Below are positions 27,426-54,175 of a stretch of 64,000 bases of DNA, one piece after another. The notes under the pieces are model-generated. The model saw nothing but the letters and a program-made list of their open reading frames with translations. It was not told where the DNA came from and did no database searches. Every line of letters begins with the position of its first letter. Position 1 is the first letter of the stretch. Origin of the DNA: Armatimonadota bacterium (GTDB lineage Bacteria > Armatimonadota > HRBIN16); the NCBI GenBank assembly GCA_026003175.1, contig BPGT01000002.1, forward strand, positions 310,001-374,000. The letters are read 5' to 3'. A program made the position numbers and the translations under genes.

Positions 27426-27563
27426 GTTCTACCTCCAGTGTAAAGTATTGTTGACTAATTTTATCATAGAAATCATATTTAATGCAATACCCACCAGAGA
27501 AGGGTTTCACAGAAGACCCCTCTGTAGGGTAAACTGAGGCATGGAGATACGGAGGAGGTTGCG

Positions 27564-28658
27564 ATGGAGAATCTCGCCCTGTCGATGAGCCTGATACACA
27601 GCGACGTCCTTCACGCACACTGTGTACTGGTGCGCAAATCGGGGTCGGCTCCTCAGAATCCGGGTGCGCGTCTGCTGGTACAGCGTGATGGTGTTATGCA
27701 CGGCACAATAGGTGGCGGCTGTGTGGAAATGGAGGTGCGTCGCCTGGCTCTCAACGCCTTACGCAACGGCAAGGCGCAGTTGCACATCTTTCGTATGGAC
27801 GACGACTACGGCTACGACGACGGCTTGATATGTGGCGGCAGGGTATGGGTATTTATTCAGCCCGACCCTGGACGATGGCTGGCTTCTCTGCAAGCAGCGC
27901 AACGACTGCAAGAGGAAGGCAAATCAGGGGCTTGGGTGCTGGTCACGCGGGCGCAGGAGCACTTGGGCGACGCCTTTTGCGTGTCTGAAGAGGATATTAC
28001 CCCCGACCCACCAGATGGGTGGCGGGAGGCATTGCACGCGGTATCCCGACAAGCGCTTCAGCAGGACAAGACCCTGTACACTTCTCTCTATGAAGGCACA
28101 GAAGTTTACGCGGAGCCGGTGCAGCCGCAGCCCAAACTGGTGTTGGTAGGAGCGGGGCACATTGCCCACGCCCTCGCGCCGATGGCGTCGGCGGCAGGGT
28201 TTGACGTGCTGGTAATAGACGACCGTCCCTCTTTTGCCAACCCCGAACGGTTTGCTGTGGCTTCCCGGTGCATCGTGGGAGACATCGCACAGAGCCTTCG
28301 GGAGTTACCAACCGATTCTCGCACGTACATTGTCATTGTCACACGCGGGCATCGGCACGATGCAGACGCCCTTCGTGTGGCAGTACACAAGCAGGCGGCG
28401 TACGTGGGCATGATTGGCAGCAAGCGCAAAATCACGGTGATTTATCGTGACCTGTTGCAAAGTGGCGAAGCCACACTGGAGCAGCTGGCTGAAGTGCACG
28501 CTCCGCTCGGTCTGGATATCGGCGCCGAGACGGTAGGCGAAATCGCGGTAAGCATTCTGGCGGAGCTGGTCGCCGTGCGGCGCGGTAAGCTAAAAAGTAG
28601 AAATAGTTCATCTATTGTCCCTATGATGTCGCTCTACGATATATCTATTTTGGGCTAG
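27564..28658 (+). CDS. XdhC/CoxI-family molybdoenzyme maturation protein
   Basis: 364 residues. The N-terminal XdhC/CoxI domain has SAPQNPGARLLV and HGTIGGGCVE (conserved GSxPRxxGAxMLV / GTIGGGxxE region). The C-terminal Rossmann XdhC_C domain has LVLVGAGHIAHALAPMASAAGF and the closing YVGMIGSKRK. Family members bind molybdenum cofactor, sulfurate it and hand it to xanthine-dehydrogenase-type enzymes. No molybdenum hydroxylase subunits are nearby, so the client is elsewhere. ATG 27564 follows GGAGGAGG. The last 20 residues (after VAVRRGKL) look like a readout into AT-rich sequence and may not be conserved. Confidence 0.88.
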   Translation: MENLALSMSLIHSDVLHAHCVLVRKSGSAPQNPGARLLVQRDGVMHGTIGGGCVEMEVRRLALNALRNGKAQLHIFRMDDDYGYDDGLICGGRVWVFIQPDPGRWLASLQAAQRLQEEGKSGAWVLVTRAQEHLGDAFCVSEEDITPDPPDGWREALHAVSRQALQQDKTLYTSLYEGTEVYAEPVQPQPKLVLVGAGHIAHALAPMASAAGFDVLVIDDRPSFANPERFAVASRCIVGDIAQSLRELPTDSRTYIVIVTRGHRHDADALRVAVHKQAAYVGMIGSKRKITVIYRDLLQSGEATLEQLAEVHAPLGLDIGAETVGEIAVSILAELVAVRRGKLKSRNSSSIVPMMSLYDISILG

Positions 28659-28757
28659 CAATCCTATTGTCAGAACAGGTGAGATGCTATGTCCTGAATT
28701 CGTAATCATTTTGTGCACGAAATCTCAATCTTAACATTTTCTTAACAAAAGCCATGA

Positions 28758-28763
28758 TATAAT
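28758..28763 (+). promoter_or_regulatory. -10 box of candidate small RNA
   Basis: A perfect TATAAT within an AT-rich stretch. The -35 is poor (TTAACA at 28731-28736 is 21 bases away). It starts the only plausible plus-strand transcript ending at the terminator at 28904-28933. Confidence 0.45.
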
Positions 28764-28769
28764 AATAAG

Positions 28770-28933
28770 CGGAAAGAGGAAGACGCCGCGACGATAAGAG
28801 ATAAACAGCAATCATCGCACGGTACTTGCTTCGCGGCGATGAAGACAGGCTTAACAGCACCCTCTACACAACAACAAGCGAACACGGGAGACTGTGCGCA
28901 TTTGGCGGGGCTAGCTACCCCGCCATTTTTTTT
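28770..28933 (+). ncRNA. Candidate stand-alone structured small RNA (about 165 nt)
   Basis: A non-coding, plus-strand interval with a perfect -10 box just before it and a strong intrinsic terminator at its end. CGCCGCGA (28784-28791) can pair with TCGCGGCG (28831-28838). A competing hairpin TCATCGC (28812-28818) / GCGATGA (28836-28842) shares three bases with it, so the two folds exclude each other. A loosely structured A-rich linker (about 28860-28882) follows. No open frame of note and no gene downstream on this strand (cheW is convergent), so a cis-acting leader is unlikely. It does not match the signatures I know for 4.5S, tmRNA, RNase P RNA, or GEMM riboswitches. It could alternatively be the long 3' UTR of the XdhC-like gene. 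Confidence 0.4.
28904..28933 (+). terminator. Intrinsic terminator
   Basis: Stem GGCGGGG/CCCCGCC (28904-28910, 28918-28924), 7-base loop, then A and eight T. Only the plus-strand transcript ends in U8. Confidence 0.9.
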
Positions 28934-28949
28934 GCTAAATGGATGCAGA

Positions 28950-29420
28950 CTACGCAGCTTCTTGCAGGCGGTTCAGTTTTTCAATCTGCTTTTTCTCCAG
29001 CAGATGTTCGGGGTTGAGCAGAAGTACTAACCTGTCGCCATCATGCCCGATGGCTTGAACGTAGCTGTTCTGCTCGTTCAGCAGGAGGGTGGTAGGGGGC
29101 TCGATATCTTCCTCTGCGAAGCGGTGCACGGTATACACGCCGTCTACGAGGAAGCCTATCGGTTGTCCATGCACTTCCGTTACTACAACGCGCATCTTCG
29201 GTGAAGGTTGCGCCGGTTCGATACCAAATCGCTCGCGCAGGCACACGATAGGGATGGTCTGTGCTCGCAGCGCGGCTGCGCCGCGCAGCCAGCGCGGTGC
29301 ACGGGGAATGCGACAGATGGGAGGAACGTGGATAATCTCCCGAACTGCTTCTACGGGAAATCCCACTATCTCCTCACCTACCTGCGCCTGCACGTACAGG
29401 TTCAAACCTTCTTGTGGCAC
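28950..29420 (-). CDS. cheW: Chemotaxis scaffold protein CheW
   Basis: CheW couples chemoreceptors to the CheA kinase. 156 residues with the CheW-domain core: VGFPVEAVREIIHVPPICRIPRAP, LRGAAALRAQTIPIVCLRERFG, and MRVVVTEVHGQPIGFLVDGV. I prefer the GTG at 29420, which has GAGGAGG nearby, over a GTG at 29450 that lacks a Shine-Dalgarno. Last gene of the chemotaxis unit that runs leftward from 33366. No cheA and no receptor gene is in the window. Confidence 0.9.
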   Translation of the reverse strand: MPQEGLNLYVQAQVGEEIVGFPVEAVREIIHVPPICRIPRAPRWLRGAAALRAQTIPIVCLRERFGIEPAQPSPKMRVVVTEVHGQPIGFLVDGVYTVHRFAEEDIEPPTTLLLNEQNSYVQAIGHDGDRLVLLLNPEHLLEKKQIEKLNRLQEAA

Positions 29421-29474
29421 TGGCGTTGCCTCCTCGATACGGTGAAGCACGAATAGTGGGCTAGCTTTACCTTG

Positions 29475-29654
29475 TCAGGCTCGAATATCGAGCAGCCTGC
29501 CCGCATCCTCAATCATTTGCACCATTTGCTCGCCTGTTTGCTGCTGGGCGTCCATCGTTTCGCGTAACAGCTTCACCTGATACTCCTGTCCTTGTTGCTC
29601 ACTGCGTAGCATAGACGCCAGCAGGTTCATCGCGGCGCGTTCTTCTACACGCAT
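29475..29654 (-). CDS. Small YjfB-like putative motility protein
   Basis: A 59-residue gene (ATG 29654, TGA 29475) squeezed between cheX and cheW. Start ATG is preceded by CAGGAGAGGAAG and begins one base after the cheX stop. The sequence starts MRVEERAAMNLLASMLRSEQ and continues with KLLRETMDAQQQTGEQMVQMI, which resembles the YjfB_motility (DUF) pattern of two helices with a (L/V)LKxTMDxQxxxGxxLLxMI block. Small proteins of this type occur in flagellar and chemotaxis clusters of Firmicutes and other bacteria. Its molecular role is unknown. It is easily missed because it is under 60 codons. Confidence 0.7.
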   Translation of the reverse strand: MRVEERAAMNLLASMLRSEQQGQEYQVKLLRETMDAQQQTGEQMVQMIEDAGRLLDIRA

Positions 29655-29655
29655 T

Positions 29656-30126
29656 CTACTTCCTCTCCTGTAGGCTCACGTTGATTTCGATATCCCCAAA
29701 GTCGCCCAACAGTATCGGCACAACGAGCGCGGGCGTATTGACCGTGGAGATTTTGACGTTGCTACCCCGGATGATGCTGGGGGGGGAGATGTCGCAGGTA
29801 TATCCCTTCTCCGCGAGTAATGCTGCAGCGTTGCCGGTAATCATATTACCCAGCTCGGCAATCGCGCTGGCGGCGAGTGCGTCAAAGGTACGGATGGGCT
29901 GACCAATCATGTGCGAGGCGATTTTATCGGCGGTAGCGAGGCTCATGCCGTAGATAACCGAACCCTCTACCTTGCCGGTCACACCCATTACGATACTGCA
30001 TTGCTGAGTGGTGAAGATGCCTGGGCGCATTGCCAGCTGACCTTTCTCCGGTTGAACGCCCAGCACCATTTCCAGCACGGAGTATGCCGCGCTCACGAAG
30101 GGATTAATGTATTCTACGCGCATCAT
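29656..30126 (-). CDS. cheX: CheX-type CheY-P phosphatase
   Basis: 156 residues of the CheC/CheX/FliY phosphatase family. The catalytic helix AELGNMITGNAAALL supplies the E-x-x-N motif that attacks CheY-P; a single such helix per monomer, as in CheX. NPFVSAAYSVLEMVLG at the start is a typical CheX N-terminus, and KISTVNTPALVVPILLGDFG is the C-terminal strand region. ATG 30126 has AAAGGAG nine bases upstream; a second ATG directly follows. It is downstream of cheY in the same operon, fitting signal termination. Stop is TAG, one base before the small motility gene. Confidence 0.88.
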   Translation of the reverse strand: MMRVEYINPFVSAAYSVLEMVLGVQPEKGQLAMRPGIFTTQQCSIVMGVTGKVEGSVIYGMSLATADKIASHMIGQPIRTFDALAASAIAELGNMITGNAAALLAEKGYTCDISPPSIIRGSNVKISTVNTPALVVPILLGDFGDIEINVSLQERK

Positions 30127-30140
30127 CGTTCTGGCTCCTT

Positions 30141-30509
30141 TCAGTTGCTGCCCAGCAGTTTCTGCACGCTCTCTATCACCCGCTCGGGCTGGAACGGCTT
30201 GACGATGAAATCCTTCGCGCCCGCCTGTATCGCCTCCACCACCAGGTTCTTCTGTCCCATGGCGGTTACCATCACGATACGCGCGTTCGGGTCGATCTTT
30301 TTAATCTCCCGTACCGCGCTAATGCCGTCCATCTCCGGCATGGTGATGTCCATTGTCACCAGGTCGGGCTTCAGGTTTTTATACATCTCTACCGCTTCGC
30401 GCCCATTGGTAGCTTCGCCAGCTACCTCGTAGCCGTGCTGAGTCAAGATATTTTTCAGGGTGACACGCATGAACAGCGCGTCATCAGTTACCAGTATCCT
30501 CTTGCCCAT
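30141..30509 (-). CDS. cheY: Chemotaxis response regulator CheY
   Basis: 122 residues, receiver domain only. Acidic pocket DD in ILVTDDALF (residues 9-10), phospho-acceptor D in LVTMDITMPEMDG (about 54), switch T in VMVTAMGQ (about 82) and K in DFIVKPFQPE (about 104) are all present. In its phosphorylated form it binds the flagellar switch. ATG 30509 follows AGGAGG; GTG 30512 directly before is less likely. Its kinase CheA is not in this window; cheX and cheC supply dephosphorylation. Confidence 0.93.
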   Translation of the reverse strand: MGKRILVTDDALFMRVTLKNILTQHGYEVAGEATNGREAVEMYKNLKPDLVTMDITMPEMDGISAVREIKKIDPNARIVMVTAMGQKNLVVEAIQAGAKDFIVKPFQPERVIESVQKLLGSN

Positions 30510-52541: not shown

Positions 52542-52675
52542 ACACTCTTCCCTGGCGGTCGCCGGGGCTACCACAGCCTGGCAAAGTGCGTTCATATAAC
52601 CTTAACATCTCCTGAAGGTATAATGAGGGCAGACGGGCAATCAGAAGGGTATGCAGGAAAGAGGGGAGGAGGCAT

Positions 52676-54175
52676 ATGACACCTTCAGAACTTTCACGTC
52701 GGGAACTGTTGCAGGCAGGAGTGGCGGCACTGGTCAGTAGCGGGCTGTTGCTGCGTGAGGCATCGGCACAGTCGCGTCCCCGTGCGTCGCGCGCGCCAAA
52801 GAACATCATCTTCATGGTCTCCGATGGGATGAGCATGGGCGTGCCAACGATGGCAGAGCCGTTCTCGCAGGTGGTGCGAGGCAGAGGCACAAACTGGTTC
52901 CGCTTGTTGCAGGACCCCGAATCGGTGACGGGATTGTTCGAGACCAGCTCGCTGGACTCTCTGGTAACCGATTCATCGGCGGCGAGCAGTGCATGGGGCA
53001 GTGGCTCGCGGGTGTTCAACGGGGCGGTGAACGTTCTACCCGACGGCACGAAGCTGACGCCCATCGCGCATGTCATGCGACGAGTGGGCAAGAAGGTCGG
53101 ATTGGTGACCACCACCACTATCACCCACGCTACGCCCGCGGGGTTTGCCGCATCACACAAGAGCCGCGATGAAGAACAGGTCATAGCCGAACAGTATCTG
53201 GACGTGGTAGACGTGCTGATGGGAGGCGGCAGGCGATTCTTTGACCCCCAACAGCGTTCAGATAAGCGTGACCTGATCGCCGAATACCGGCGCAAGGGTT
53301 ACGCTTTCTGGGAGAAGCGCGAACAAGTGCAGGGACGCGAACGACCGGAAAAAGTGCTCGGGCTGTTTTACAACGGGCATGTGCCCTATACAATCGACCA
53401 CCAGAACACTCCCCAGCTCTGGGAGCAAGTACCCACGCTGGCGGAGATGGCGCGCGTTGCGCTAGAAATCCTCTCGCGCTCTCCAAAGGGCTTCCTGCTG
53501 CAGATCGAGGGCGGGCGTGTAGACCATGCGGCGCACTCCAACGATGCGGCGGCTCTGCTGTGGGACCAGCTGGCTTTTGATGACGCTATCGCAGTAGCGG
53601 TGGACTTCGTGCGCAGGCATCCCGACACGCTGCTGGTGATTACCAGTGACCACGGCAACTCCAACCCCGGTTTGAACGGCATGGGCGAGGAGTATCGTGA
53701 TAGCACGAAGTGTCTGGAGCGGATCGCGCAGGCGAAAGGCTCCTACGTTGCCGTTCAGGACCTGCTGAAGAAGGCGGGCACGCCCACACCCGATAAGGTG
53801 CGTGAGGCAATACATGAAGTAACTGGCATCGAAATCACGCGCGAGGAGGCGGACGTTATCGCCAGCGTTGCCAGCGGAAAACCTGCCCCCACATTGAACC
53901 GCGCCCATGCGAATCTGGCGGGCGTTCTGGGCGAGGTGCTCTCCAATTACAACGGTGTGGCGTGGACGATGATGAGCCATACCAGCGACTGGACACTGGT
54001 AACCGCTTTAGGAGCGGGCAAAGAGATGTTTGCGGGCATTCAGCCGCACAAGGAGGCGTTCCACCGAATGCTGAGGCTGACCGGCATCTCCTTCCGCAAC
54101 CCGGAGATGACACCCGAGCAGGCAAAGCGCTACCTTGCCCGTGCTCCGCGTGTGCGTACGGTGCACTGGGTGTAA
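52676..54175 (+). CDS. Alkaline phosphatase, Tat-exported
   Basis: 499 residues. A twin-arginine signal (SRRELLQAGVAALVSSGLLL, cleavage after SAQ) leads to the alkaline-phosphatase fold: FMVSDGMSMG (first metal aspartate), LVTDSSAASSAWGSG (catalytic serine), GRVDHAAHSNDAA and VITSDHGNSNPG (metal ligands D/H), MMSHTSDWTLV (H). Releases phosphate from organic monoesters in the periplasm. A TATAAT at 52619-52624 lies upstream, though without a good -35. The 134-base gap before it holds only this box. Stop TAA precedes a relic gene by 24 bases. Confidence 0.93.
   Translation: MTPSELSRRELLQAGVAALVSSGLLLREASAQSRPRASRAPKNIIFMVSDGMSMGVPTMAEPFSQVVRGRGTNWFRLLQDPESVTGLFETSSLDSLVTDSSAASSAWGSGSRVFNGAVNVLPDGTKLTPIAHVMRRVGKKVGLVTTTTITHATPAGFAASHKSRDEEQVIAEQYLDVVDVLMGGGRRFFDPQQRSDKRDLIAEYRRKGYAFWEKREQVQGRERPEKVLGLFYNGHVPYTIDHQNTPQLWEQVPTLAEMARVALEILSRSPKGFLLQIEGGRVDHAAHSNDAAALLWDQLAFDDAIAVAVDFVRRHPDTLLVITSDHGNSNPGLNGMGEEYRDSTKCLERIAQAKGSYVAVQDLLKKAGTPTPDKVREAIHEVTGIEITREEADVIASVASGKPAPTLNRAHANLAGVLGEVLSNYNGVAWTMMSHTSDWTLVTALGAGKEMFAGIQPHKEAFHRMLRLTGISFRNPEMTPEQAKRYLARAPRVRTVHWV

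Follow-up and report, generated by a model that had tools for sequence, protein, structure and literature searches.

The question raised by this locus is whether a short intergenic unit, a -10 box with ~165 non-coding bases behind it and then a strong U8 terminator, is a stand-alone gene, and when its product would be made. The unit occupies positions 28758-28933 (+) of the window (the whole 64,000-nucleotide stretch of DNA analysed, from a 4.1 Mb Armatimonadota genome), between an xdhC-like gene (+, PF13478/PF02625, ending at 28658) and cheW (-, PF01584, 28950-29450). An earlier note, made from the letters alone, had proposed a stand-alone small RNA with a perfect -10 box, about 165 non-coding bases and a U8 terminator, running opposite to cheW with no gene attached. 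All of these elements are present in the sequence, with cheW on the minus strand and the RNA on the plus strand, and the stand-alone reading is supported by a conserved promoter and terminator of its own, variable flanking genes and the lack of an Rfam family. We conclude that the unit is very probably a genuine small regulatory RNA gene, previously undescribed, of uncultivated hot-spring bacteria; the RNA gene as such is well supported, and the RNA is apparently turned on upon phosphate exhaustion.

The -10 box (TATAAT, 28758-28763, +) is identical in all seven full loci, and ~140 bases without a credible gene separate it from the intrinsic terminator (28903-28933, +). The predicted transcript spans 28769-28933 (+), its start probably falling at 28769-28772. 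The terminator consists of an 8-pair stem (28903-28925) with a 7-nt loop, followed by U8 (28926-28933); it is the only terminator-like site in the region 27500-30200, a count which proves nothing alone, since shuffles of this region averaged 2.2 such sites.

The RNA is conserved in seven of ten genomes of the HRBIN16-type Armatimonadota class, a class sample whose members all belong to one genus. An eighth locus (G008) has its contig end within the promoter, and no match to the RNA was found in G005 (98% complete) or G007, both fragmented assemblies (430 and 350 contigs). A DNA search of 41 genomes (the window's own and 40 relatives) returned E values of 4.9e-85 to 5.3e-101 in six relatives; conservation of the RNA is far above chance. 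Beyond the seven, a covariance model searched against 291 genomes of the phylum yielded only weak matches, either partial or shortened, with E values of 0.009 to 0.48. A 20-mer of the RNA was found at four loci in genome contigs, which are apparently those of genus members, and at none in viral contigs. At the sensitivity used, the RNA is restricted to the class. Within it, a block of 76 nt (28849-28924, +) is identical in all seven species, whereas the fourfold-degenerate pstS sites of the same seven differ by 32-64% (21 pairs); such a block, set against silent divergence on this scale, is therefore under extreme constraint. The 5′ part of the RNA differs by 7-20% among the same species. Constraint over the full 76 nt exceeds the need of a short seed; numerous partners, or a tight complex with protein, would account for it.

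Flanking genes vary between the loci. The xdhC-like gene is upstream in six of eight and cheW is in reach in five of eight: G002 and G004 possess cheW and lack xdhC, G006 and G009 possess xdhC with no cheW within the fetched flank, and G008 is truncated. The sequence upstream of the -10 box (a Pho-box-like repeat, described below), the -10 box and the RNA are nevertheless present in all seven full loci, and the RNA is independent of both xdhC and cheW. This bears on the possibility, raised in the earlier note as what would undo its proposal, that the RNA is merely the 3′ UTR of the xdhC-like gene. In G000 the RNA does begin 100 nt beyond xdhC, and the gene is upstream in most loci as counted above, but G002 and G004 retain the RNA and its whole promoter without an adjoining xdhC; as a general explanation the 3′ UTR is refuted, and we regard it as extremely improbable for this locus. 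It is also very improbable that the RNA is the mRNA of a small protein. The only long open frame, which starts with an ATG at 28839 (MKTGLTAPSTQQQANTGDCAHLAGLATPP in G000), is open across the 76-nt block in all seven species, but it reads through the terminator to species-specific ends, and conservation covers every base, wobble positions too, and stops at the terminator. With the wobble positions invariant and the frame running through the terminator, a protein is therefore not the reason for the conservation. As a separate observation, the presence or absence of xdhC (window 27564-28658) beside the small RNA differs by species, a gain or a loss (window versus L003 and L006); the gene on the other side of xdhC from the RNA is, we presume, OsmC-like.

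At gathering thresholds, Rfam covariance models recognised only a single tRNA in the whole window, in keeping with the first impression that the RNA belongs to no known family. Low-threshold matches (SorX, AgvB, SorY, ar9 and others) fell far below their cut-offs and rested mostly on the terminator. SorX (RF02784), for example, likewise has a small hairpin followed by a terminator, but scored 22.9 bits against a gathering score of 46.6, with a 13-nt stretch of the model missing and no shared 5′ domain. In Sinorhizobium meliloti, phosphate-stress-responsive sRNAs are described, some of them Hfq-bound, and PhoB-like sites were predicted before some candidates (PMC8829014, PMC2573895); candidates that rise in phosphate starvation have no evident PhoB site in PMC2573895. 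The likeness to our RNA would be one of phosphate response and Hfq binding, and the host is unrelated. In the open-access papers searched, judged by titles and abstract openings, none described an sRNA for Armatimonadota, Pho-controlled ones included. Phosphate-responsive sRNAs are thus known in other bacteria; our RNA stands out by its unusually strong conservation.

The main clue to the control of the RNA, overlooked in the earlier note, lies just upstream of the -10 box. A Pho-box-like direct repeat, CTTAACAT-TTT-CTTAACAA (28730-28748, +), comprises two 8-bp units with a 3-bp A/T linker and ends 9 nt upstream of the -10 box; it is unchanged in six of the seven full loci, with two changes in G006 and one in the G008 fragment. 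No good -35 element is found at the standard distance from TATAAT, and the direct repeat occupies that position. A missing -35 match at normal spacing is expected for an activator-dependent promoter. The promoter has the makings of a Pho box: its two 8-bp direct repeats, joined by a 3-bp A/T linker, lie at about the usual 10 bp from the -10 box (here 9 nt), and within this genome the motif also precedes pst and phosphatase genes. According to PMC1906773, an E. coli Pho box consists of direct repeats of 8 bp, separated by an A/T-rich linker of 3 bp and placed 10 bp ahead of the -10 box, and cyanobacterial boxes are CTTAACCT repeats. Our site shares with the E. coli PhoB and cyanobacterial SphR boxes the repeat length, the linker and the distance to the -10 box, whereas it has two clear repeat units against the at least three described for SphR sites (PMC1906773). 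As with PhoB/SphR-controlled genes, the same repeat here precedes pstS and an alkaline phosphatase gene; unlike them, the repeat here would control an RNA without a gene, in a host of another phylum.

To score this motif, both strands of the window were scanned with a matrix built solely from nine pstS promoters. Its input was the nine long pstS loci, and four other PBP_like_2 matches (L040, L041, L042 and L051), three shorter paralogues and one fragment, were excluded beforehand; TTAA-type repeats occur near the locus ends in L040 and L041 and are absent from L042 and L051. The RNA site at 28730 ranks first in the window with 26.5 bits (training sites 28.0-31.3), the maximum across eight mononucleotide-shuffled windows being 16.9 bits. 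The next-best site belongs to the promoter region of an alkaline phosphatase gene (52676-54175; PF00245, 234 bits), where ranks two and three overlap at 52590-52619, just upstream of a TATAAT; the second Pho-box-like site reads GTTCATAT-AAC-CTTAACAT, then 10 nt, then TATAAT (52590-52624, +). It provides an independent check because this gene was not used for the matrix, its own score of 13.6 bits falling inside the shuffled range. The pstS box itself is present in all nine genomes with a long PstS, as CTTAAAA-N4-(C/T)TTAACA with a -10-like element, TACGAT or a variant of it, behind it, and the gene order pstSCAB-phoU was confirmed in G000. Allowing up to one mismatch, CTTAACNNNNNCTTAAC has five sites in G000. 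The only perfect one is that of the sRNA; the others belong to pstS, to a phosphoesterase gene lying 300 bp downstream, to a DUF1559 gene and to a PEP-CTERM gene. This genome-wide number of relaxed CTTAAC repeats is not above a reversed-pattern control (4+2); the Pho argument rests on where the CTTAAC repeats lie, not on their number. On this sequence evidence, Pho control of the RNA is strongly supported.

The same repeat extends beyond phosphate genes. Of the 13 exact TTAAC-N6-TTAAC places in three relatives, 11 were viewed: six precede DUF1559 pseudopilin genes (five assigned by Pfam scan and one by sequence recognition), three are the sRNA itself, one precedes a purple-acid-phosphatase-like gene (N-terminal domain at 28.6 bits, just below the cut-off of 30) and one has no assignment. 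A DUF1559 gene of G001, itself followed by a PF04185 phosphoesterase gene, has a multi-unit repeat with one mismatch ahead of it. This leaves two possibilities, DUF1559 pseudopilins as part of the Pho regulon or a regulator with a wider range than PhoB. TTAAC repeats with an 11-bp period and up to four units were seen directly before DUF1559 genes at L084 (assigned by sequence match), L086, L087, L088, L090, L091, L093 and L094, in G000, G003, G001 and G002.

We consider it probable that the unit belongs to the Pho regulon as a stand-alone sRNA gene whose product acts in trans by base-pairing, possibly with Hfq. By computation we observe the conserved gene unit, its independence of its neighbours, the Pho box that it has in common with the pstS and alkaline phosphatase genes, and genes for Hfq and for a single PhoB-like regulator; we infer that the RNA is transcribed, induced at low phosphate, bound by Hfq and paired with targets as follows. 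Upon phosphate starvation, a response regulator of the PhoB/PhoP type would bind the CTTAAC direct repeat, which would replace the -35 element, and would bring RNA polymerase to the TATAAT box. The transcript, ~165 nt and ending at the intrinsic terminator, would fold into an outer stem around a long 5′ stem. A bare A/C linker would come next, then a small hairpin of GNRA type and finally the terminator. The linker and U8 tail could bind Hfq, and the invariant unpaired stretches could reach mRNAs.

The predicted fold of 28769-28933 (165 nt) has an energy of -51.5 kcal/mol, compared with -40.1 +/- 3.9 in 200 shuffles, none of which did as well (z -2.9). Its outer stem pairs AGAGG (28775-28779, +) with 28861-28865 and encloses the long stem B, formed by CGCCGCGA (28784-28791, +) and TCGCGGCG (28831-28838). 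The unpaired linker ACACAACAACAA (28866-28877, +) contains A-R-N-like triplets that continue into AAG, and is a candidate Hfq or pairing site; it is followed by the hairpin GCG-AA-CACGG-GAGA-CUGUG-CGC (28878-28899, +), with a GNRA-type tetraloop and an invariant sequence, and by the terminator. An Hfq gene scores above the cut-off in all ten genomes, and the RNA carries the marks of an Hfq-associated sRNA, an intrinsic terminator with a long U tail (U8) and an unpaired A-R-N site (the AAC-AAC-AAG linker), A-R-N being the pattern given for Hfq-bound RNAs in the abstract of PMC4104026. The Hfq gene in every genome and the triplets of the linker therefore favour an Hfq-associated base-pairing sRNA.

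Mutually exclusive stems had also been proposed for this RNA, and the pairing itself can be seen: besides stem B, a stem C joins TCATCGC (28812-28818) to GCGATGA (28836-28842), and the two share three bases, 28836-28838. The invariant AGCAATCATCGC (28807-28818, +) is mostly loop, its 3′ part being an arm of stem C, and the invariant TCGCGGCGATGA (28831-28842, +) is common to both stems and holds their overlap. That the stems exchange on protein or ligand, with the exchange as the function of the RNA, is a reading we hold to be improbable, and this part of the proposal found no support. Neither the arms of C nor the core of B vary among the seven species, and stem C is the minimum-energy state in G001, where B is behind by 2.4 kcal/mol, and lies within 0.4 kcal/mol of B in G004; in the other five genomes, however, stem B is favoured by 3.6-10.3 kcal/mol (4.7 in G000, 7.3 in G003, 10.3 in G002, 3.6 in G009 and 3.7 in G006), so that the balance varies by species. 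Moreover, there is no downstream gene that a switch could control, and both stems stay clear of the terminator. None of the 39 consensus-fold pairs shows a double change in the seven genomes, although both stems are nearly invariant and no covariation is therefore to be expected; with the arms of the alternative stem unchanged, its absence is weak evidence against a switch.

The linker invites a different comparison, with the anti-GcvB sRNA AgvB (RF02702), which also has a CA-rich unpaired stretch before its terminator (PMC4104026). If our RNA were a sponge or target mimic of this kind, its CA-rich linker would capture a G/U-rich sRNA. The linker is invariant and unpaired, and together with the terminator it gives a sub-threshold AgvB match, but its 20.2 bits fall far short of the family's gathering score (56), no GcvB-like partner was found here, and no conserved complementary non-coding site for the linker was found in the ten genomes; we judge a sponge quite improbable. 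The remaining alternative keeps the same RNA and changes its regulator, which would be another OmpR/PhoB-family member with pst and the phosphatases in its range, for example a regulator of surface pseudopilins. Since the same repeat precedes many DUF1559 pseudopilin genes, including six of the 11 places above, the regulator need not be PhoB. Against a different family member, the pstS box is present throughout the nine genomes, and alkaline phosphatase and PF04185 phosphoesterases are linked to the repeat too. Genes for pst, alkaline phosphatase and phosphoesterases form the classical Pho set. We consider such a substitute regulator unlikely. One PhoB-like regulator per genome is found at E <= 1e-40 in each of the ten genomes, scoring 264-273 bits, below the TIGR02154 cut-off of 296, and in G000, where its gene spans C1:554422-555090, it is followed by a PAS-domain histidine kinase gene.

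For the favoured base-pairing sRNA, targets were sought with complements of the linker plus anti-Shine-Dalgarno sequence, as a 20-mer (G-U allowed, up to three mismatches) and as a 14-mer (up to one mismatch). Neither linker complement gave a gene-start match common to the relatives (context of 19 loci read). A single match common to three genomes was rejected, as it lies within a coding sequence, which we take to be HdrC-like, and is explained by protein conservation. The 5′ loop complement, taken as an exact 13-mer with G-U allowed, returned a list of matches. Duplex energies at 17 pseudopilin, nine pstS and 45 window gene starts gave no clear gain over shuffles: at these starts the linker did no better than a shuffled linker, and the 5′ loop paired with the pseudopilins ~1 standard deviation above shuffles, a set of mutually homologous and hence not independent sequences. 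We claim no target. On a more speculative footing, and unlikely as it stands, the RNA, whose 3′ half does not vary among species close to silent-site saturation, might link phosphate scarcity to cell-surface remodelling. The TTAAC repeat would then drive pst, phosphatases and the RNA as well as numerous DUF1559 pseudopilin genes, and the RNA's invariant loop would perhaps pair with the shared 5′ coding sequence of pseudopilin mRNAs, an sRNA that would tune pseudopilins within the Pho regulon.

If its transcription holds true, the RNA represents an undescribed sRNA family in Armatimonadota, and comes with a hypothesis on when it is made. The TTAAC/CTTAAC motif also sketches a Pho regulon for the class HRBIN16, apparently including the DUF1559 pseudopilins. 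One member of this class is reported to rank with the most active taxa in Yellowstone mats, for which metatranscriptomes exist (PMC11788075), and the claim can therefore be checked on existing data.

The regulator may itself be part of this circuit. A weaker box (13.1-21.4 bits) lies upstream of the PhoB-like gene in four of the six loci viewed, G000, whose flank may end sooner, not being among the four, and the operon of the PhoB-like regulator may thus be Pho-controlled. These weaker Pho-box-like sites (L174, L176, L178 and L179) stand upstream of the gene that precedes the regulator.
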